NCBI GenBank assembly: GCA_017994115.1
Contig: JAGOLK010000005.1
Coordinates: 1-56,349 of the forward strand
Direction of reading: 5' to 3'
Length of the DNA stretch: 56,349 nt
From: Clostridia bacterium
GTDB lineage: Bacteria; Bacillota; Clostridia; Lutisporales; Lutisporaceae
Shown: positions 22,466 to 32,290 of the stretch, piece after piece
Numbering within the stretch: position 1 is the stretch's first letter
Layout of the letters: each line of letters starts with the position of its first letter
Made by a program: the position numbers and the translations under genes
Notes under the pieces: model-generated
Database searches by the model: none
What the model was told of the DNA's origin: nothing
What the model saw: only the letters and a program-made list of their open reading frames with translations

Positions 22466-23422
22466 CTAAAATTGGGCATATTCTTGCTTCTTGTACCAAT
22501 CTATAAACTTCTCTATTCCTTCTTCAATTGAAACCTCAGGATTATATCCCAATACAGCCTTCGATTTTGTTATGTCCGCATAAGTGTGTTCCGCATCTCC
22601 CTTCTGAACCGGCAAATACACTCTGCGCGCAGATTTGCCAAGCTTTTGTTCTATTAAGCTTATCAGATCATTAAGCTTTATTGGGTTTGAATTTCCCAGA
22701 TTGAATATGTCAAATGAACATTTGTGATAAATTGAAGCGACTATCCCATTAATAATATCATCAATATATGTGTAGTCTCTTGAACTTGTCCCATCTCCCC
22801 ATACAGGTAACTCTTTCCCTTCATCTATCAGCCTTGTAAAATAGTGTACAGCCATTTCCGGCCTTTGTCTTGGGCCATAGACTGTGAAAAACCTCAAGCA
22901 TATTACCGGTATGTCATAAAGCACATTATAGGTACTGCAAAACAACTCTCCGGCCAGCTTAGCTGCCGCATAAGGCGATATCGGCGATTTTTTGCCGTCT
23001 TCTTTAAAAGGGACAGAATTTAATCCGTATACGGAAGAGGTTGATGCGAAAATGAACTTCTTTACTTTAAAATCTTTGCTGAATTCAAGAAGATTGACTG
23101 TTCCCTTGATATCCACATCAACATACTCAAGGGGATTTCCAATGGATGTTCTGACTCCTGCAAGAGCTGCAATATGAACTACGGTATCTATATTAAATGT
23201 ATTGAATATTTTCTCCAAAAGCTTCCTATCTCTTATATCTCCTTCAATAAGGGTGTATCTCCGGTTTGAAAGGGCTGTCAATATATTCTTTCTTTTTATT
23301 TTCGGGTCATAAAAGTCATTAAAATTATCTAAATTTATTACCCAATATCCGAGCTCCAGAAGCTTTTCACACAAATGGGAGCCTATAAATCCCGCTCCTC
23401 CGGTAACCAAAACAGTACTCAT
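22466..23422 (-). CDS. UDP-sugar 4-epimerase (UDP-glucuronate epimerase-like)
   Basis: 318 residues, extended SDR. GGAGFIGSHLCE binds NAD; SSVYG and YAAAK (YxxxK) are the catalytic elements. The NFNDFYDPKIKR segment after beta strand 2 is typical of UDP-glucuronate 4-epimerases. The neighbouring UDP-glucose dehydrogenase makes UDP-glucuronate, so conversion to UDP-galacturonate fits well. A UDP-glucose or UDP-GlcNAc epimerase is the alternative. It overlaps the upstream ugd gene by 4 nt. Confidence 0.82.
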   Translation of the reverse strand: MSTVLVTGGAGFIGSHLCEKLLELGYWVINLDNFNDFYDPKIKRKNILTALSNRRYTLIEGDIRDRKLLEKIFNTFNIDTVVHIAALAGVRTSIGNPLEYVDVDIKGTVNLLEFSKDFKVKKFIFASTSSVYGLNSVPFKEDGKKSPISPYAAAKLAGELFCSTYNVLYDIPVICLRFFTVYGPRQRPEMAVHYFTRLIDEGKELPVWGDGTSSRDYTYIDDIINGIVASIYHKCSFDIFNLGNSNPIKLNDLISLIEQKLGKSARRVYLPVQKGDAEHTYADITKSKAVLGYNPEVSIEEGIEKFIDWYKKQEYAQF

Positions 23423-24735
23423 TTTCTTCCCACTCCCTTATATGAAAACCCGAAGCTTTTTACATAGTCAGGCTCATATATATTTCTCAGATCCACAAAA
23501 GCCGGATTGCGAACAATAGATTTCAGTCTTAAAAAATCCAATCCGGCAAAATCCTTCCATTCGGTGACAATCACAATGCAGTCGCTGCCTTCACAGGCCG
23601 AATATACATCACTGCAATATTCAACCGAAAAATCAGGATATACTTTTTCCGCATTTACCATGGCTTCAGGGTCATAAGCTTTGATTTTAGCTCCATTGTC
23701 CAGAAGCAATCTTATAATTTTTATAGCAGGTGCTTCCCGGACGTCATCGGTTTCCGGTTTGAAAGCAATTCCTAAAATTGTGATTGTCTTATTCTCAATA
23801 TCGCCAATTGTTTTTTTTATCTTTTCGAACATTATTCCGGGCCGATTATTATTTACTTCCACAGTGCTGTTTACAATCATAGGTAAGCATCCAAGGTTTT
23901 TGCCGAAATTCACAAGGGCCTTGGCATCTTTGGGAAAACAGCTGCCTCCGTAGCCGGGCCCGGGATTTAAAAACTTTGGCCCTATTCTGCTGTCCAGCCC
24001 CATTGCTTTAGATATAACGCTAATATCAGCATTGCAAAAGTCACACATATCTGCTATCTCGTTTATATAGCTTATTTTTGTTGCCAGGAAGGCATTGGAA
24101 GCATATTTTATCATTTCAGCCGTTTCTATATTAGACACAACCATTGGCAGATCCAGCTGAATCTGAACTGCATATATCCTTTTCATAATATTTATGGCTG
24201 CTTCTCTTTCAGCACCGATAACAATTCTGTCGGGCTTCAGGAAGTCCTTAACAGCAGTTCCTTCCCGCAGAAATTCCGGATTGGATACAACATCAAAGTC
24301 ATACCGTTTGCCTTTCTGCTGTAAAATGGATTTAACTTCTGATTTAATCCATTGTCCCGTTCCGACGGGTACGGTGCTTTTACATACTATAACCTTATAA
24401 CCCTCAATATGATTTGCTATATCTCGTACTGCCTGATGCACATATTTCATGTCAGCCGAACCATCCTCCAATGGCGGCGTACCCACAGCAATAAAAATCA
24501 CTTCAGCGTTTTCTACGGCATTTTTTATAGATGTTGTGAAGTTTAACCTCCCCAAATCGCAGTTTTCTTTAATAATACTCTCCAGGCCAGGTTCATATAT
24601 CGGAACAATTCCATTTTTTAATTTATTGATTTTATCCTCATCAATATCCATACAGATCACATTCATGCCCAGCAGTGCAAGGCATCCGCCCGTAACCAAT
24701 CCTACATAGCCGGCACCAATAACTGCTATATTCAT
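23419..24735 (-). CDS. ugd: UDP-glucose 6-dehydrogenase
   Basis: About 438 residues. NAD site IAVIGAGYVGLVTGG at the N-terminus; catalytic cysteine in GPGYGGSCFPKD (about residue 258); C-terminal UDP-binding domain with LGIAFKPETDDVREAP. It oxidises UDP-glucose to UDP-glucuronate with two NAD+. ATG 24735 follows AAGGAGGATT; the upstream in-frame ATG at 24756 does not have such a site. It lies between the glycosyltransferase and epimerase genes in one operon. Confidence 0.93.
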   Translation of the reverse strand: MNIAVIGAGYVGLVTGGCLALLGMNVICMDIDEDKINKLKNGIVPIYEPGLESIIKENCDLGRLNFTTSIKNAVENAEVIFIAVGTPPLEDGSADMKYVHQAVRDIANHIEGYKVIVCKSTVPVGTGQWIKSEVKSILQQKGKRYDFDVVSNPEFLREGTAVKDFLKPDRIVIGAEREAAINIMKRIYAVQIQLDLPMVVSNIETAEMIKYASNAFLATKISYINEIADMCDFCNADISVISKAMGLDSRIGPKFLNPGPGYGGSCFPKDAKALVNFGKNLGCLPMIVNSTVEVNNNRPGIMFEKIKKTIGDIENKTITILGIAFKPETDDVREAPAIKIIRLLLDNGAKIKAYDPEAMVNAEKVYPDFSVEYCSDVYSACEGSDCIVIVTEWKDFAGLDFLRLKSIVRNPAFVDLRNIYEPDYVKSFGFSYKGVGRK

Positions 24736-24762
24736 AGTAATCCTCCTTCCTGTCATAGTCTC

Positions 24763-25896
24763 CTAAGCCCTTTGAAAAAGCTGCAATAAATCATTGGCGA
24801 CTCTTTCCCAGTTATAACGCAGAACTGCAAGACTGCGCCCTTTTTTACCGAGTTTAAGCGCCATATCAGGATTGTCAAGCAGATAGTTTATTGCATACGT
24901 AAATTCATCAGGATTACTATAATCGTCTATTTCTATGCCGTTCCCGTATTCCCAGGATACTACCTCGGCATTTCCTCCTCTGTTCGTTGTTATAATAGGC
25001 AAGCCTGCGGCCATTGCTTCATAATGTACCCTTGACAATGGCTCTTCCCATTGAGATGCGCATAAAAATATATCGCCTAAACTGAAGAAATCAGGCATTT
25101 CTGACGGCGGAACAAAACCGGTGAATAACACAGGACCTTTCATCTTTTCGGAAAATGACTTCAGTGACCGTATATAATCATCGGATTTATTGCTGCCATA
25201 CCATTTACTTCCAACCACAACCAATGCTACATCATTTCTGTATTCCATAACTTTTCCCATTGCTTTTAGTACAATATCAGAACCCTTCTTGGGGCTAAGC
25301 CTGCTTACATAAAGAACTATTTTATCCTTGCCCAGCTTTGATTTTAATTCGGCCTTATTATTAGTTCCATTCTCAGACCACCAAGGTTGATATTTATCAA
25401 CATCAACCCCTGAGTAAACTACATTCAATTTTCTATCCGCAATAGGATATAATCTTCTGATCCCGTCAGCAATAAACTTGCTGACGGTGGTGATAAATTC
25501 TACCATCTCTATGCATTCAACAGCTGTTTCGGCAGGTATCTTTTCAGGAAGAAACATTTCATTATGAATGCTAAGGCTAAATTTTGCGTTTTTTAGTTTC
25601 TTGCCTAATACAGGAACCCAACGAGGCCTGTTGAATACATGAACTATATCAAACTCATCTTTTAGCTGAGTCATTACATTATTAAGGTATTCCTCCTTGT
25701 TCCTGCCGGGAACTCTTATATAGTTCACTCCATCTGCTGTCTCTTGTTCGGGCAAACTGGGATGCGCTATGCAAAAGACAGTCACTTCATGATATCTTGA
25801 TAAATAAGGCAAAATGCCATCAATATATTGTTGAATTGCACCGCCTGAAACTGGGGGAACAGGAAGCTTTTCCGTACAAATCAATGCAATTTTCAA
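24763..25896 (-). CDS. Family 4 glycosyltransferase, CotSA-like
   Basis: About 377 residues, GT-B fold. The N-terminus (KIALICTEKLPVPPVSGG) resembles Bacillus CotSA, a spore-coat glycosyltransferase encoded beside cotS. The donor-site region WEEPLSRVHYEAMAAGLPII carries the EX7E motif of GT4 enzymes. CotS-family genes lie less than 1 kb away, divergently, which repeats the cotSA/cotS association. Start: TTG at 25896 with GGAGGTG seven bases upstream. It is probably first in the operon with ugd and the epimerase, so a uronic-acid-containing spore glycan is a reasonable inference. Confidence 0.8.
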   Translation of the reverse strand: MKIALICTEKLPVPPVSGGAIQQYIDGILPYLSRYHEVTVFCIAHPSLPEQETADGVNYIRVPGRNKEEYLNNVMTQLKDEFDIVHVFNRPRWVPVLGKKLKNAKFSLSIHNEMFLPEKIPAETAVECIEMVEFITTVSKFIADGIRRLYPIADRKLNVVYSGVDVDKYQPWWSENGTNNKAELKSKLGKDKIVLYVSRLSPKKGSDIVLKAMGKVMEYRNDVALVVVGSKWYGSNKSDDYIRSLKSFSEKMKGPVLFTGFVPPSEMPDFFSLGDIFLCASQWEEPLSRVHYEAMAAGLPIITTNRGGNAEVVSWEYGNGIEIDDYSNPDEFTYAINYLLDNPDMALKLGKKGRSLAVLRYNWERVANDLLQLFQRA

Positions 25897-26050
25897 TATC
25901 TCACACCTCCGATCCATTCACAAAAATATGCACAAGCACTAATACGATTTAGTAACTGACTTGTCCTAGTACATAATATAAAGAAGTTCCATTTTTGATA
26001 CAGGTTATGCTAAAAAATGGGATGTATTTGCTGCCTTAAGAAGAAGTTGA

Positions 26051-26085
26051 ATTATTGATGCAAAATGAGTAACATACAATGTTAC
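26051..26085 (+). promoter_or_regulatory. Possible sigma-E promoter with overlapping palindrome
   Basis: GAATTATT (from about 26049) and CATACAAT (26073-26080) match mother-cell sigma-E elements with 16 bp between. The -10 lies inside a perfect 17-bp palindrome GTAACAT-ACA-ATGTTAC (26069-26085), which would allow a second regulator. Confidence 0.45.
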
Positions 26086-26155
26086 ATCTGAGTATTATTT
26101 TAGTGAGAGAGGCCAAGCCTTAAAGAAATAAATTGATTCAGAGGGAGGTGTTATT

Positions 26156-26371
26156 ATGAAATATCAGGAAGACTATGTCGGAACAAAAGCGGAACTCAGC
26201 GACTTCATTAAAAAAGTTATACCGGAACTGTTCGCCGGCAGGCTGGCAATTGAAGGCCAGACAGTACGCATCCCCGCTGACCGTAGCCTTGAATACAAAA
26301 TAAAATACGATTCAGCAGGGTCCTTAAACATCAAGGTGTCATGGGAAGATGAAGAAGAAGAGGAAGAATAG
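26156..26371 (+). CDS. Amphi-Trp domain protein
   Basis: 71 residues. The pattern ELSDFIKKVIPELFAGRLAI...VRIPADRSLEYKIKYD...LNIKVSWE followed by an acidic EEEEEE tail is that of the amphi-Trp domain family, a short amphipathic domain with a conserved tryptophan and no known activity. GAGGGAGGTG precedes the ATG. The possible sigma-E promoter and the cotS genes downstream suggest sporulation expression. Confidence 0.82.
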   Translation: MKYQEDYVGTKAELSDFIKKVIPELFAGRLAIEGQTVRIPADRSLEYKIKYDSAGSLNIKVSWEDEEEEEE

Positions 26372-26395
26372 GCGATCAAAAAGAATACATGATTA

Positions 26396-26425
26396 AATCA
26401 GGGGCGGATTTTATCCCCCCTGATT
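26396..26425 (+). other. Hairpin after the amphi-Trp gene
   Basis: AATCAGGGG (26396-26404) pairs with CCCCTGATT (26417-26425). No clear U tract follows, so partial termination or mRNA-end protection are both possible. Confidence 0.45.
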
Positions 26426-26450
26426 ACAACCTTTTCAGGGAGTGATTACT

Positions 26451-27482
26451 TTGACCGATATCAGCCGGGAACCTATTAATGAAGTACTAAGCAATTATGA
26501 TATTAAAGTTGAGGGGATCAGGAACGAATCATACAAGGACAAAAAAGGTGTATGGTGGGTGCAGACACCTCAAGGCTATAAGATATTAAAGAAAATATCC
26601 AATTCGGAAGATACACTGAAGTATATCCTGTCAGCTGTCAGGCACTTAACTAATAACGGGATACGCATACCCAAGATTAACAGCACCAGAGACGGCAGAG
26701 ATTATGTTAATATTAACGGAACCTGCTATGTCCTTTCAGATGCAATAAAAGGGAGAAATCCCAGTTATGAATCTCCTCGGGAGCTTGAGGCGGTTATCAA
26801 GGAAATGGCAAGGTTCCACCGGGCTTCGGCAGGCTTTTCCCCTCTGCCCGGCACCAAACCCAAAGTTCACCTTGGAATATGGATTGAGGACTATCAGGAA
26901 CAGATCGATGATATGGAGAAGTTCTATAAACAGGAAAAAGCTCAAGAGCGAACCGGAGCCATAGGCAAGCTGATCCTGCAGGAGTTCCCCGGATTCCACA
27001 ACCGGGCAATAAATGCAATAAGCGGTTTGAAGGGGCCTGAATACAAGGAGTGGGTTGATAAGGTAAGTAAAGCCGGCGGTCTATGTCATCAGGATTTTGC
27101 AGCAGGAAACCTGCTTCTGGATAGCTCAAACAACATGTATGTATTGGATACTGACTCTATAACCATAGACATCCCGGCCAGGGATATCAGGAAAATTTTC
27201 AACAAGGTTATGAAGAAAGCCGGGAGTTGGAACATCGATCTTACCAGGAAAATACTGGGCTGCTACCAATCCGAGAATCCCCTTTCCCCGTCAGAGTGGC
27301 ATGTGGTCAAGCTGGACCTCATGTTCCCCCATCTTTTCATAGGTGCTATGAATAAATACTATTACAGGCGGGATAAGGAATGGTCATACGAAAAATATCT
27401 TCTAAGGCTAAGAGAAATGTCTGCCTTTGAAAAGAGCATAATACAGGTGCTTGATGATTTTGAATCCCTGTTGCCTGAATAA
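26451..27482 (+). CDS. CotS-family spore coat protein (kinase-like fold)
   Basis: About 343 residues. Aminoglycoside-phosphotransferase/CotS fold: a lysine-containing N-lobe (GYKILKKIS), helix region, then the catalytic loop GGLCHQDFAAGNLLL (HxDxxxxN) and the metal site MYVLDTDSI, followed by DIPARDIRKIF. CotS/CotI proteins are located in the spore coat and some act as protein kinases; the key H, D, N and D residues are present here. TTG 26451 has GGGAG eight bases upstream; GTG 26442 lies in that site. Confidence 0.85.
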   Translation: MTDISREPINEVLSNYDIKVEGIRNESYKDKKGVWWVQTPQGYKILKKISNSEDTLKYILSAVRHLTNNGIRIPKINSTRDGRDYVNINGTCYVLSDAIKGRNPSYESPRELEAVIKEMARFHRASAGFSPLPGTKPKVHLGIWIEDYQEQIDDMEKFYKQEKAQERTGAIGKLILQEFPGFHNRAINAISGLKGPEYKEWVDKVSKAGGLCHQDFAAGNLLLDSSNNMYVLDTDSITIDIPARDIRKIFNKVMKKAGSWNIDLTRKILGCYQSENPLSPSEWHVVKLDLMFPHLFIGAMNKYYYRRDKEWSYEKYLLRLREMSAFEKSIIQVLDDFESLLPE

Positions 27483-27505
27483 CCCGGTCGGAAGGAGTGA
27501 GCAGC

Positions 27506-28526
27506 TTGGATAACCATGCGGAAGATTCAAACAGTCTTGTTAAGCTGGCACTTGATGTATTAAAAAATTATGACATCTCGCCATCAGCTGTGACAGTAGT
27601 CCAAAGCGGAAATATAAAGACGGTGTGGAAAATCCGGACCGACAGTGAAACCCTTTGCCTCAAGAGGTTGAAGCAAACCTATGACAAGGCTCTCTTCTCA
27701 GTCAATGCCCAGGTCTATATCAAAAACAAAGGAGGAAATGTTCCCGGAATAATGCTTAACATAAACAACCAGCCAATAACCATTTATGATGACCAGCTGT
27801 TTGTTGTTTATGAGTGGTTGAGCGGGAGAGATCTAAACTTCGGCATAAGTAAAGACCTGGAGTTGGCTGTCAAAGGGCTGGCCAAATTCCATGTGTTTTC
27901 AAAGGGCTACAATCCTATTGAAAATTCAAGAACCTCTTCCAAACTTGGCAAGTCACCGGAGCAGTATGCTTCAATGAAAAAAGTTTGAGGAATGGAAAGC
28001 AGCTGCGGCAAATAATGCTTCGGCTCCCCGCCATTCAACTTACCTGAAATACGCCGATTCCATGATTGAAATAGCAGGAAGAGCTATAGAACTCATAAAT
28101 AAATCATCCTATGACAGCTTAACCGAACCGGATTCCGGCTCAATAGTCCTGTGTCATCAGGATTACGGCAAGGGCAATACCCTTATGACCGACAACGGAA
28201 TATATGTGCTGGACTTGGATGGTGTGACCTATGACCTTCCCGCCAGGGACTTAAGAAAAATAATAGGAAAGCAGGCTGAAAACAAAAACCGGTGGAGTAT
28301 AGACCTCATTAACGAGGTCACAGATTGGTATACCCAGATAAACCCTATGGATGAGAAAGAAAAGCATGTCTTGTATATAGACCTGCTGTTCCCCCATTGG
28401 TTCTTTGGCCTTGTAAAGAATATTTACAAATCCAATAAAGCTGTTAAGCCGGCTAAAATTGAAATGATATGCAAGTTAGAGCAGGACAAGGTTCCGATTT
28501 TGGATTCCTTGCTGCGATGTATGTAA
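27506..28526 (+). pseudogene. Second CotS-family gene, interrupted by a frameshift at an A6 run
   Basis: The first part (27506-27988, about 160 residues) gives a CotS N-lobe (TVWKIRTDSETLCLKRL). It stops at TGA 27986 just after AAAAAAG (27977-27983). Removing one A joins it in frame to the second part, which begins FEEWKAAA and carries the catalytic loop VLCHQDYGKGNTL and YVLDLDGV. The joined protein would be about 339 residues, the same as its neighbour. Start TTG 27506 with AAGGAG, 24 nt after the first cotS gene. This could be a real mutation, a sequencing error in a homopolymer, or a slippage site. Confidence 0.8.
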
Positions 28527-28537
28527 TTCATCTGACA

Positions 28538-28564
28538 GGCCGATATCTGTCTTCGATATCGGCC
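28538..28564 (+). other. Hairpin after the cotS-like pair
   Basis: GGCCGATATC (28538-28547) and GATATCGGCC (28555-28564) pair perfectly around a 7-nt loop. AT-rich DNA follows but no continuous T run. It is probably an imperfect terminator between converging operons. Confidence 0.5.
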
Positions 28565-28666
28565 GCTAATATTAAATTATTTACACAAAAGCTTAGTAAA
28601 AAGAGAATGAGACGACCTGAAAGTGTGCTAGATCGCCCCTGTTTTAACATTTAAGCAGTTTCATCA

Positions 28667-28954
28667 CTATTTCCAAAACTCCATGAGATTATAACTGCAT
28701 TCCGGTTCCTCCTTCTTTGCAGTAAACTGTTCTGCAGCATCATCCAGTTCTGTTATGAACATATATTCCAGTTCCTTCTTCTTAGCAGCCAGATGCTCTT
28801 CTGCTTCATTCATATTCTTCTTATACTTGGCAACCAGCTTTCTATTGCACACTTGTCTGGGTATCTGCTTAAGTAATTTACCATATTCCTCTACTATTAC
28901 TTCAAGCACTGCTACCTCCTGCTTTAATTGAACAAATTCATTTGACAACTCCAT
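28667..28954 (-). CDS. Coiled-coil protein of the duplicated small-protein array (unit 2, gene B')
   Basis: 95 residues, almost wholly helical. Residues about 14-62 (LEVIVEEYGKLLKQIPRQ... then NRKLVAKYKK...HLAAKKKEL) align with the C-terminal 50 residues of the protein at 29420-29920 (IPRQ, NRKLVA, LAAK shared). The N-terminal MPEL-type domain of that protein is missing here, although the leader sequence is shared. GAGGAG precedes the ATG. Unknown function; it follows the Cys-rich gene at 29051 in the same direction. Confidence 0.7.
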   Translation of the reverse strand: MELSNEFVQLKQEVAVLEVIVEEYGKLLKQIPRQVCNRKLVAKYKKNMNEAEEHLAAKKKELEYMFITELDDAAEQFTAKKEEPECSYNLMEFWK

Positions 28955-28995
28955 GTTTTCATCTCCTCACTTGCTGGATTCCGTTATGTATCCGG

Positions 28996-29023
28996 AGGAT
29001 AAATGGTCTTTACCATTTATCCT
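28996..29023. other. Hairpin between array genes
   Basis: AGGATAAATGGT and ACCATTTATCCT form a perfect 12-bp stem with a CTTT loop. Five T residues follow on the plus strand only, although the flanking genes are on the minus strand. It may attenuate the minus-strand transcript or shield against plus-strand read-through from the cotS side. Confidence 0.5.
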
Positions 29024-29050
29024 TTTTCGGTCCTGGGCTATATTGAACAA

Positions 29051-29293
29051 TTAGCACTTACCATGGCCGTGTTTCTTATCTTCTTCTTCACAAACTGCGT
29101 TGATGTTGATTATTACCACATTGTTCAAAACAAAAATAAACTTTATTTTCTTTAGGCAGCAGCAATCATCGTTGCCATTACAGCCTCCGTCACTTTCTCT
29201 CAAGCTCATCATTTCTCTGATAGTATCCATATTACCAGAAATAACTCTTGCTGCATCAACTGATAGTAATTCCGGCATCTTTACATATTCCAT
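29051..29293 (-). CDS. Small Cys-rich protein of the duplicated array (unit 2, gene A')
   Basis: About 80 residues. N-terminus MEYVKMPELLSVDAARVISG, then an acidic Cys-rich segment (CNGNDDCCC), a lysine pair and a hydrophobic beta stretch KFIFVLNNVVIININA, then CEEE and a His/Cys tail. The same layout occurs at 30011-30316. I know no named family. A CCC group plus strongly acidic tail suggests metal binding or disulfide cross-linking, as in coat proteins; this is inference. AAAGGAGGTG precedes ATG 29293. Confidence 0.7.
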   Translation of the reverse strand: MEYVKMPELLSVDAARVISGNMDTIREMMSLRESDGGCNGNDDCCCLKKIKFIFVLNNVVIININAVCEEEDKKHGHGKC

Positions 29294-29335
29294 AAATTCA
29301 CCTCCTTTCATTTTCTGGGCGGAAAATTTAAACCG

Positions 29336-29384
29336 GTTCGTCTTCTTCCAATAGCATTATATGACTTGTACACTTTATTGCTAC
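29336..29384 (-). promoter_or_regulatory. Promoter block of unit 2 (shared with unit 1)
   Basis: At least 32 consecutive bases here are identical to 30365-30396. On the minus strand it contains CATATAAT (29363-29356), which fits a sporulation-type CATAnnnT -10 as well as a sigma-A TATAAT. There is no good TTGACA at the right distance, which favours a mother-cell sigma factor. Confidence 0.45.
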
Positions 29385-29419
29385 TGATTGTACAAAAAAA
29401 TCCATAACCCAAGTTTTCA

Positions 29420-29920
29420 TCACAGTTCCATCCTTTTTGCAGCTAATTGCTCCTCTATTTCAAGTATTTCTTTTTTACAACGGGCAACCAGTTTTCTGTT
29501 AAATATCTGTCGGGGTATCATTTTCAGGATCTTATCAATTTCGTTTTTTCTTGCTTCAAGTATTTCCATCTCCATCCATATATGCTTATGTCCGCCTGAA
29601 ATGGCTTCCCAGTCGTCATGTCCTTTATCATGGCCCCTATCGCCTATCTTTATATGACAGCCTTCAATATGCTCTTCCGCCTTTTCCCTGCAGCGGTCTT
29701 TATTGCAATCATCTGATGCATTATCCACACCAATGGTCACGTTACAAAATACAAGCTTGACAATTGTCGTATTATCTCCGCATTCCATACCGCAGTTCTG
29801 CCCTACAATAACCTTCTCCCCCGGCTGAGGATCGGTAATCGCTTTCAGCACTTCAGGATTTTCAGCTATCACCTCTGCAAACTTCGGTGTTATTAATTCA
29901 GGCATAATAACTTGATCCAT
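29420..29920 (-). CDS. Two-domain protein of the duplicated array (unit 1, gene B)
   Basis: About 167 residues. N-terminal part begins MDQVIMPELITPKFAEVIAE and continues to a beta stretch IVKLVFCNVTIGVDNA, echoing the KFIFVLNN stretch of the A proteins; it is rich in Cys, His and acidic residues (NCGMECGD, DDCNKDRC, HDKGHDDW). The last 50 residues form a coiled coil with IPRQIFNRKLVARCKK, homologous to the separate protein at 28667-28954. It therefore links both parts of the array. GGGAGGTG precedes ATG 29920. Function unknown. Confidence 0.7.
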   Translation of the reverse strand: MDQVIMPELITPKFAEVIAENPEVLKAITDPQPGEKVIVGQNCGMECGDNTTIVKLVFCNVTIGVDNASDDCNKDRCREKAEEHIEGCHIKIGDRGHDKGHDDWEAISGGHKHIWMEMEILEARKNEIDKILKMIPRQIFNRKLVARCKKEILEIEEQLAAKRMEL

Positions 29921-30010
29921 GCTTTCATCACCTCCCTTACTGGATTCTGTTATGTATAGTGAAGCATAGGTACAATAATTTAAGATTATGTACCTATGCA
30001 TTTCATATTA

Positions 30011-30316
30011 TTATTGTGGCTGGGGTTCTTCTTCTTCGCAGGCTGCATTAACGTTGATTACCACTGCATTGTTCAAAACAAATATGAATTTAACTTTTTT
30101 GGGGCAGCAGCATTCATCATCGTCTTTTACTTTATGTTTGGGTGCACATCCGCCGCTTTCCTTTTTGCTTTCATTCTTTTCCGATTTGAAAAAATCTTTC
30201 AAGGCTGCCGCCATTTCATCTTTGGGGCTTGGTTCTTCTTTAACAGTGTGAACATTGCCTGATAAAGCCTTTGCTAATTCCGGTGAAAGCATTTCCGGCA
30301 TTTTTACATATCCCAT
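30011..30316 (-). CDS. Small Cys-rich protein of the duplicated array (unit 1, gene A)
   Basis: About 102 residues. MGYVKMPEMLSPELAKALSG, a lysine/glutamate-rich spacer, then ECCCPKKVKFIFVLNN and a CEEEE tail. It is the paralogue of 29051-29293, with a longer middle (about 22 extra residues), and DNA similarity extends over the 3' half and the promoter block. GGAGGTG precedes ATG 30316. It lies first in the array, before gene B with about 90 nt between. Confidence 0.7.
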   Translation of the reverse strand: MGYVKMPEMLSPELAKALSGNVHTVKEEPSPKDEMAAALKDFFKSEKNESKKESGGCAPKHKVKDDDECCCPKKVKFIFVLNNAVVINVNAACEEEEPQPQ

Positions 30317-30351: not shown

Positions 30352-30407
30352 GGAACCGGTTTGTCTTCTTCCAATAGCATTATATGACTTGTACTTACTA
30401 TTGCTAC
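30352..30407 (-). promoter_or_regulatory. Promoter block of unit 1
   Basis: Contains CATATAAT on the minus strand (30386-30379) in the same context as 29336-29384, including AACCGGTT and GTAGCAATA ends. Conservation spans both promoter and the start of the leader. Confidence 0.45.
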
Positions 30408-30412
30408 AATTC

Positions 30413-30436
30413 ATAAAAAAAACGCCTCACGGCGTC
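30413..30436 (-). terminator. Intrinsic terminator of the acnX operon
   Basis: On the minus strand ACGCC-GTGA-GGCGT is followed by eight T residues (30421-30414). It lies about 75 nt after the small-subunit stop and just before the promoter block of the small-protein array. Confidence 0.8.
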
Positions 30437-30511: not shown

Positions 30512-30925
30512 TCACATTATTTCGATGATTTCGTTATTAATACGGACGAATAAACCTGTTTTCAGCAGCTGATAATCGTCTTCAGAAATACTTATGATGG
30601 GCAGATTCAATCCATACATTTTTTCTGCTACAATAGAACCAATGGCTAAAATTTTTTCGCTATTAATATTAATTATTGCCCTGGGGGCGATCCCTTTTCT
30701 TAAAGCTTCAAGAATCACACCGGCTGTACTGCTTGATCCCTTTCCACAGGGAAAGGCAAAAATTTTGTCTTTTAATACCTCTTGATAAACATCGCTTCTG
30801 GTATCTACAATACTGCCTGTTTTAAAACTAAAACCGCCGAAAAAGCTAAAGGGTTCATGAGAAACAATGAGAGTTCCTTCCGTACTGCCTCCCACAAGAC
30901 TTTTTCCTTTGATAATTGTTTTCAT
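30512..30925 (-). CDS. Aconitase X swivel (small) subunit
   Basis: 137 residues. The conserved swivel-domain pattern is clear: GSTEGTLIVSHEPFSFFGGF, GSIVDTRSDVYQE, FAFPCGKGSSSTAGVILEAL. It forms one active site with the large subunit encoded 36 nt upstream. Known AcnX enzymes include archaeal phosphomevalonate dehydratase and bacterial cis-3-hydroxy-L-proline dehydratase. Here the subunits are separate, as in the archaeal and some bacterial forms. The substrate cannot be assigned, because no proline or mevalonate genes are nearby. Confidence 0.85.
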   Translation of the reverse strand: MKTIIKGKSLVGGSTEGTLIVSHEPFSFFGGFSFKTGSIVDTRSDVYQEVLKDKIFAFPCGKGSSSTAGVILEALRKGIAPRAIININSEKILAIGSIVAEKMYGLNLPIISISEDDYQLLKTGLFVRINNEIIEIM

Positions 30926-30961
30926 TTCATTTCCCCCGTATAATTATTGTAATCATTACGG

Positions 30962-32194
30962 CTAACCCTTGGGCTGAAGAGCCGTATTTACACATTCACC
31001 CAAACTTGCAAATACAACCTCCTTGCCAGTTAATGCCTTCATGTAATGGGCATATTTGGCTGAGTTTGTCATGACTGTTTTTATATCCCAACCGTTAAGG
31101 TCAGTATTTAAAAAGCAGGTGTCCCGGATAATTCTCACGCCGCTTTTTATCAAATTATCGATAATGAGGGTAGATTCTAACAGGGAATATACTTCTCTAT
31201 TGGTATAAATCCAAAATTCCATCTCTTTAGAAATAGACTTGCCATTAAGTAACTCTGCAATTTCCATTAGTTCCACTACGGATGCATGAGGGCACCCAAT
31301 CAGAATGGCATCTACACTTTCGGGAGCCGCGCTGCTTAAAGATTTCCTGGAATCTAAATACATTTCTTTTGTAATCTCTATAGTTTCAATATTGGATGAA
31401 TCATCTAATATTGAATTTAAATCCGGGGCTTCCGGCGTAATCCCAATCATATGAAACATAGCTACTGCCCCCGATGAAGCAATAGCTGCGGAAAATGCTT
31501 TCAGTTGATCTGATGTTACCCATTGTGGAATTCCGGTTATAGCGGGGATTTTATCCTTAGCAAGCTTACCCGCAAGATACCCCAATACAGCAAAGTCATC
31601 AGTGCTTGATTTTAAGGGTAACCCCTCACAGTTTATAATGATCTGAGCCAGGCGGTTTTTCTTGATATGTAATCCAAATTTGGGCGCCCGGCCGGTTAAT
31701 GCACAACAAAGGTCGGTGTAATCTCCATATCGTTCGGTTCTAGCACCAATGACAGAATTCACATATACTATGGCATTCGATTCTGCCCAAGCCACTTGCT
31801 CCCCAAATCGAGGTGCACAAACCCCTTGGTAAGGAGCGCAAGTCCAAGTAGGAATAGCGCCCATTTCTAAATAAGCTTTTTCCATTCTGGCATTTTTTTC
31901 TGCATACTCTGCATTCATTCTATGGTCTACCCAGCACTTAATGTCCCTGGAATTGGCATTAAGGGTTGTAGGTACCGCAACATGCCCCCCCATTTGCTGC
32001 ATTTTTTCAGCAAACTCCAAACCAGCCTCACCAACGGCGCCATAAAGGCAACCATCAATATGCACCTTAGAAATCGGAATTAGTTCCGCAGCCCCATACA
32101 ATTCGCCCAACTTAATAATGATTTCGAGAGCAATTTTTGCTGCTTCGCCTCTCTTACCGTATAAAATTTCCTGTTCATCTTGCGTTAATTTCAA
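30962..32194 (-). CDS. Aconitase X catalytic (large) subunit
   Basis: About 410 residues. AcnX signatures: HIDGCLYGAVGEAGLEFAE near the start, PYQGVCAPRFGEQVAWAESN and NSVIGARTERYGDYTDLCCA in the middle, and IGCPHASVVELMEIA near the end. The cysteines in these blocks are candidate [Fe-S] or substrate ligands. It is a predicted hydro-lyase. TTG 32194 (KLTQDEQEIL) follows AGAGGTG at six bases; upstream in-frame codons lack a site. Operon with the small subunit; terminator at 30413. Confidence 0.85.
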   Translation of the reverse strand: MKLTQDEQEILYGKRGEAAKIALEIIIKLGELYGAAELIPISKVHIDGCLYGAVGEAGLEFAEKMQQMGGHVAVPTTLNANSRDIKCWVDHRMNAEYAEKNARMEKAYLEMGAIPTWTCAPYQGVCAPRFGEQVAWAESNAIVYVNSVIGARTERYGDYTDLCCALTGRAPKFGLHIKKNRLAQIIINCEGLPLKSSTDDFAVLGYLAGKLAKDKIPAITGIPQWVTSDQLKAFSAAIASSGAVAMFHMIGITPEAPDLNSILDDSSNIETIEITKEMYLDSRKSLSSAAPESVDAILIGCPHASVVELMEIAELLNGKSISKEMEFWIYTNREVYSLLESTLIIDNLIKSGVRIIRDTCFLNTDLNGWDIKTVMTNSAKYAHYMKALTGKEVVFASLGECVNTALQPKG

Positions 32195-32290
32195 ATTTTT
32201 CACCTCTGTTTTTCTTCCAAGGCTTCTTATAGTAATTATAATCCACAATTTGTAACAAGTAAATTATTACAGGGTATCGCATCATTCCAA

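Follow-up and report, generated by a model that had tools for sequence, protein, structure and literature searches.

Array structure and leader sequences

Four small genes, designated A, B, A', and B', stand in this order in a row on the minus strand of the window, i.e., the whole 56,349-nucleotide stretch of DNA analyzed here, according to the list of open reading frames (Table 1). The positions of these frames as given by the first-pass annotation were confirmed. Between genomes of the genus, dN/dS ranges from 0.10 to 0.34 for the four genes (0.12-0.32 for A), so that A, B, A', and B' are all real coding sequences under purifying selection. In one relative (G004), B (L031:5265) has an in-frame TGA four codons ahead of the usual end and is slightly truncated. 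In the window, two adjacent genes at 30512-32248 (minus strand) encode a two-subunit aconitase X / cis-3-hydroxy-L-proline dehydratase-like enzyme (AcnX; small swivel and large subunit).

Table 1. Features of the array and of the adjoining island in the window.
Feature	Position	Strand	Description
CotS island	22466..28995		Present in the window and G002, replacing the YckD-response regulator-histidine kinase cassette of G001, G004, and G005 (blastn synteny); epimerase, UDP-glucose dehydrogenase, glycosyltransferase, amphi-Trp protein, CotS, frameshifted CotI, B'
Gene B'	28667..28954	-	95 aa; corresponds to the helical hairpin of B, N-terminal region missing
B' leader	28965..28991	-	Copy of the B leader (exact match search)
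Hairpin after A'	28997..29022	-	Ends in a T-run and forms a complete intrinsic terminator in G001 and G004
Gene A'	29051..29293	-	80 aa; paralogue of A
A' leader block	29331..29371	-	Same as that of A (pattern search)
Gene B	29420..29920	-	166 aa, ATG at 29920; A-like N-terminal MPEL segment, low-confidence beta/Cys region, variable linker, C-terminal helical hairpin
B leader motif	29931..29957	-	ATACATAACAGAATCCAGTAAGGGAGG, 27 bp; two exact matches in the window
A-B hairpin	29964..29999	-	Near-perfect, no T-run; kept in G000, G001, G003, and G004, mostly in G005
Gene A	30011..30316	-	101 aa; MPEL N-terminus, CCC cluster, beta-rich C-terminus
A leader block	30354..30394	-	GTACAAGTCATATAATGCTATTGGAAGAAGACAAACCGGTT; promoter-like, with 5' UTR
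Intrinsic terminator	30421..30436	-	Just upstream of the A promoter region

A 41-base block, GTACAAGTCATATAATGCTATTGGAAGAAGACRAACCGGTT, is common to the leaders of A and A'; it was found only before these two genes, twice per genome in five genomes of the genus (reversed-pattern control: 0). The two leaders have GTAGCA, 15 bases upstream of CATA, as a further invariant element. The block resembles a dedicated promoter together with a 5' UTR. CATATAAT is similar to a -10 element for a mother-cell sigma factor, agreeing at 7/8 positions with the sigma-E consensus, with no clear -35 element. The A/A' leader is nearly identical between paralogues and species; it also holds the palindrome AACCGGTT and a short ATG-started frame (MLLEEDKPV...) that runs into A in G003 and G005. 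The terminator ahead of the A promoter region (one found, with 1.4 expected in shuffled sequence) recurs as the same GACGCCGTGAGGCGTTTTTTT in the G001 leader. Between A and B, the 90-nt leader folds at -18 to -24 kcal/mol; this strong hairpin without a T-run might attenuate or stabilize the transcript.

In Pfam and NCBIfam scans, A and B had no match and A' and B' had matches below the cut-off only, and PHROGs offered no family for the four genes beyond weak coil similarity. The sub-cut-off matches of A' and B' in these three collections look like chance or generic coil similarity and were set aside. No meaningful relative was found in a PDB sequence search with A and B, nothing in an Rfam search of the array, and no relative of B in phage, plasmid, and IMG/VR collections.

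Genome searches covered 99 relatives, 22 genomes of the order, 391 of the class (with the A profile), and 398 of the phylum (with the B profile). Among the genomes searched, A- and B-type genes occur only in the window's own genus, in all six of its genomes, namely, the source of the window (G000, a 1.97 Mb draft, 81% complete) and G001 to G005; none was detected in the 16 other genomes of the family or in the 391 class and 398 phylum sample genomes. Weak class matches to the beta segment of A (G046, G122, G125, G236) were dismissed as chance, as a simple motif look revealed no A-like frame there.

A' is present in all six genomes of the genus, and orthologues of A occur in G001, G003, G004, and G005. 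In the window and in these four, i.e., all the relatives with a complete locus, A-B-A' is contiguous, with flanks that vary (e.g., PPDK/thiolase in G003, AcnX in G001, and a spore photoproduct lyase-like gene in G004). G002 shows A' and B' only, on a contig that begins 77 bases before A', and profile searches did not find A or B elsewhere in that genome. Those 77 bases (L029:1-77) are unrelated to the conserved leader, which may reflect the contig edge or a rearrangement that removed the A' promoter. The best reading of this distribution is that A-B-A' is a genus-restricted, co-inherited trio under purifying selection.

Segments shared by A, B, and B'

B had been described as carrying an MPEL-type beta domain like that of the A proteins, and the first part of this domain was recovered. 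A profile built from A and A' only matches the N-terminus of B in all five genomes having B (E 9e-4 to 8e-3), a profile of residues 1-28 scores B at 12.5-22.8 bits (0/2000 shuffles reach any of these values), and hhalign aligns residues 1-27 of A and B at P 91.6%. The beta part of the claim was not demonstrable: for the proposed match IVKLVFCNVTIGVDNA / KFIFVLNNVVIININA, the A beta profile scores B no higher than about the median of shuffled sequence. Demonstrable sharing between A and B is limited to this N-terminal segment of approximately 28 residues, starting with MPEL. AlphaFold models of both proteins, obtained from shallow alignments, are of low quality (mean pLDDT 48 and 51), too low for a comparison of folds; they put a pair of short helices behind MPEL and then strands at similar places, the strands being predicted with very low confidence. 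The trio stays contiguous although its flanks change, its members are under purifying selection, and A and B have their N-terminal segment in common; these observations support a joint role of A and B, and the constancy of the A-B-A' trio supports a functional connection between the two.

The C-terminal coiled coil assigned to B survives in the form of an antiparallel helix-loop-helix (residues 104-134 and 142-165, block pLDDT 58-87), which is separated from the N-terminal part by a variable, low-confidence linker. The suggestion of metal binding or disulfide cross-linking fared unevenly. Some cysteines are conserved (C43, C47, C59, and C148 are invariant in B, as are C45 and C46 in A/A'), but the His/Asp-rich tract is confined to B of the window and its near relatives and is not conserved in G003 and G005, so that this tract does not point to metal binding.

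The earlier account of B' as a protein that kept the coil and the leader of B and lost the N-terminal domain was borne out. The part of B to which B' aligns is its C-terminal third, i.e., the helical hairpin, at 45-63% identity with an invariant IPRQ..NRKLVA core, and the common leader ATACATAACRGAATCCAGYAAGKGAGG is present in exactly two copies in the window and in none of 100 shuffles. The presence of the B leader and the confinement of the match to the hairpin support the loss of the N-terminal domain. B' was found in only two of the six genomes of the genus, namely, in the window and in G002 (L029:417-710). The G002 orthologue begins with MDRGGLYRGK ahead of the hairpin, as expected if the region from the B start codon to the hairpin was deleted.

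In an unrooted tree of seven hairpin sequences over approximately 59 residues, the B' hairpins are sister to that of G003 B with 71% support, and the group of G003, B', and G005 has 95% support; the B' hairpin of the window is 47% identical to that of the neighboring B and is not grouped with it. The grouping with G003 B is moderate evidence against B' being a recent duplicate of the adjacent B. Because B' is extra to B in the window and its coil branches among the B sequences, B' is probably a truncated paralogue and not the ancestral, unfused form. Misassembly of the window was discarded as a source of B', as G002 independently has the order A'-B'-CotI-CotS.

A possible role at the spore surface

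The overall best explanation, to which slightly less than even confidence is attached, is that A-B-A' is a co-inherited set with a structural role in the spore and that B' is a truncated paralogue by the CotS island. A, B, and A' would most likely act together as structural, partly Cys-containing proteins that are made during sporulation and belong to the spore coat or surface. Through its N-terminal segment, B would enter the assembly to which A belongs, and through its helical hairpin it would self-associate or bind another partner. B', which appears to have lost the N-terminal approximately 100 residues and to have kept the leader, the ribosome site, and the hairpin, could work only by means of the hairpin, if it works at all.

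A structural, spore-related role is regarded as most likely because the hosts are CotS-positive and the proteins are small, Cys-containing, genus-restricted, and narrow in distribution. CotS-family kinases score over the cut-off in all six carriers, which marks these as genomes of spore-formers, and lineage-restricted or narrowly distributed coat proteins are common (PMC3533761). A and B resemble small lineage-restricted coat and exosporium proteins in size, in their cysteines, in their narrow distribution, and in occurring in CotS-positive genomes. They differ in having no similarity to the coat families of Pfam and NCBIfam (no spore coat or exosporium family match was obtained in Pfam, NCBIfam, or the PDB), and a narrow distribution defines no family.

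Somewhat less probable, and still to be taken seriously, is that A, B, and A' constitute another surface or stress-related small-protein system, next to which the CotS genes are incidental. Only two of the six loci adjoin CotS genes, the neighbors elsewhere being metabolic or two-component genes, and CotS genes score over the cut-off in 19 of the 22 family genomes, mostly without A/B, so that other genera of the family carry CotS and lack the array. Both observations count against a spore link, and the A/A' leader shows no clear mother-cell sigma promoter. This alternative has to contend with the CotS-positive state of every carrier and with the commonness of lineage-restricted coat proteins, and on inspection no signal peptide or membrane segment is evident in the proteins.

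A bolder version of the spore-surface reading is a long shot: A and B might be the two components from which an undescribed spore-surface layer, specific to the genus, assembles itself, with the shared N-terminal MPEL segment as the handle, and the handle-less B', having come with the CotS island, might terminate or modulate assembly.

Origin of B' and the fusion argument

The homology between the window and G001 ends at 22481 and restarts at 28996, exactly at the hairpin after A'. Behind the array, G001, G004, and G005 carry, in this order, genes for a YckD-like protein, a response regulator, a histidine kinase, and a thiolase. In G003, the thiolase gene comes immediately after the array; the YckD gene is absent from G000, G002, and G003. 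In the window and G002, the T-run of the hairpin after A' is replaced by the B leader. Within the island, the epimerase and UDP-glucose dehydrogenase were recognized by sequence only. The CotI-type gene (27497-28526, plus strand) has a frameshift near 27985 in the window, which is either a pseudogene mutation or a draft-assembly error; its G002 orthologue is intact (343 aa).

A spore polysaccharide cluster of the form ytaA/cotS - cotSA/ytcC - ytcA - ytcB is known from Bacillus and some Clostridiales (PMC2860764). The island is similar in having CotS and CotI kinases, a glycosyltransferase, a UDP-glucose dehydrogenase, and an NAD-dependent epimerase. A, B, and A' do not belong to the described cluster, and B' lies at the edge of the island only in the window and G002; A, B, and A' are located elsewhere in four genomes of the genus.

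B' may have arrived with or beside the CotS island. Alternatively, the A-B pair could have been duplicated in place to A'-B' before the genus radiated, with B' lost afterwards in four lineages. Such a duplication would account for the presence of A' in all six genomes, for the match of the A' leader to the A leader and of the B' leader to the B leader, and for the order A-B-A'-B', which resembles a duplicated pair. It is nevertheless less probable, since no B' remnant lies downstream of A' in G001, G003, G004, or G005, a complete terminator follows right after A', where B' would start, in G001 and G004, and the sole carriers of B' share the CotS island, with B' adjoining it. Because of the missing remnants in four relatives and the intact terminators in two, co-transfer of B' with the island is favored over an old duplicate.

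The first-pass annotation had taken the neighboring fused and split forms as a hint of physical association. Domain fusion predicts functional links in general (PMC529437). As in Rosetta stone pairs, B carries two segments that are also found in separate neighboring proteins, A and B' being homologous to non-overlapping parts of B; unlike in such pairs, the separate coil B' is a truncated paralogue alongside the fused B and no alternative to it. The fusion argument requires a genome that encodes the two modules by separate genes instead of as one fused protein. Every complete locus has a full-length, fused B, invariably next to A and A', and none of the four relatives with a complete locus has a stand-alone coil gene. 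The coil stands alone only in the window, where it is additional to B, and in G002, whose contig begins 77 bases before A'. Thus, fused forms were indeed found in other genomes, but a split coil was never shown to replace the fused B. Likewise, no coil gene was seen without any A-type gene, which is a weak test because the six loci represent one syntenic array. The split B' does not show that the A and B proteins touch.

The reading of B as a genuine fusion between an A-type module and a coiled-coil partner, with the A'/B' split showing that these modules bind, is accordingly quite improbable: the N-terminal segment common to A and B and the side-by-side position of A' and B' in two genomes, possibly co-transcribed after loss of the terminator T-run, are outweighed by the fused B of all complete loci, the nesting of the B' coil within B diversity, the shortness of the shared part (approximately 28 residues, with no significant beta part), and the variable linker of B.

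When a split gene lies next to a fused one, it can be a truncated paralogue, which corrects a tempting inference, and it is the survey of six genomes of one genus that tells such a paralogue from a true split. If A and B prove to be spore-surface proteins, a lineage-specific pair would be added to the poorly catalogued coats of the clostridial relatives, which are mostly metagenomic, and B' would represent a natural domain-deletion experiment.
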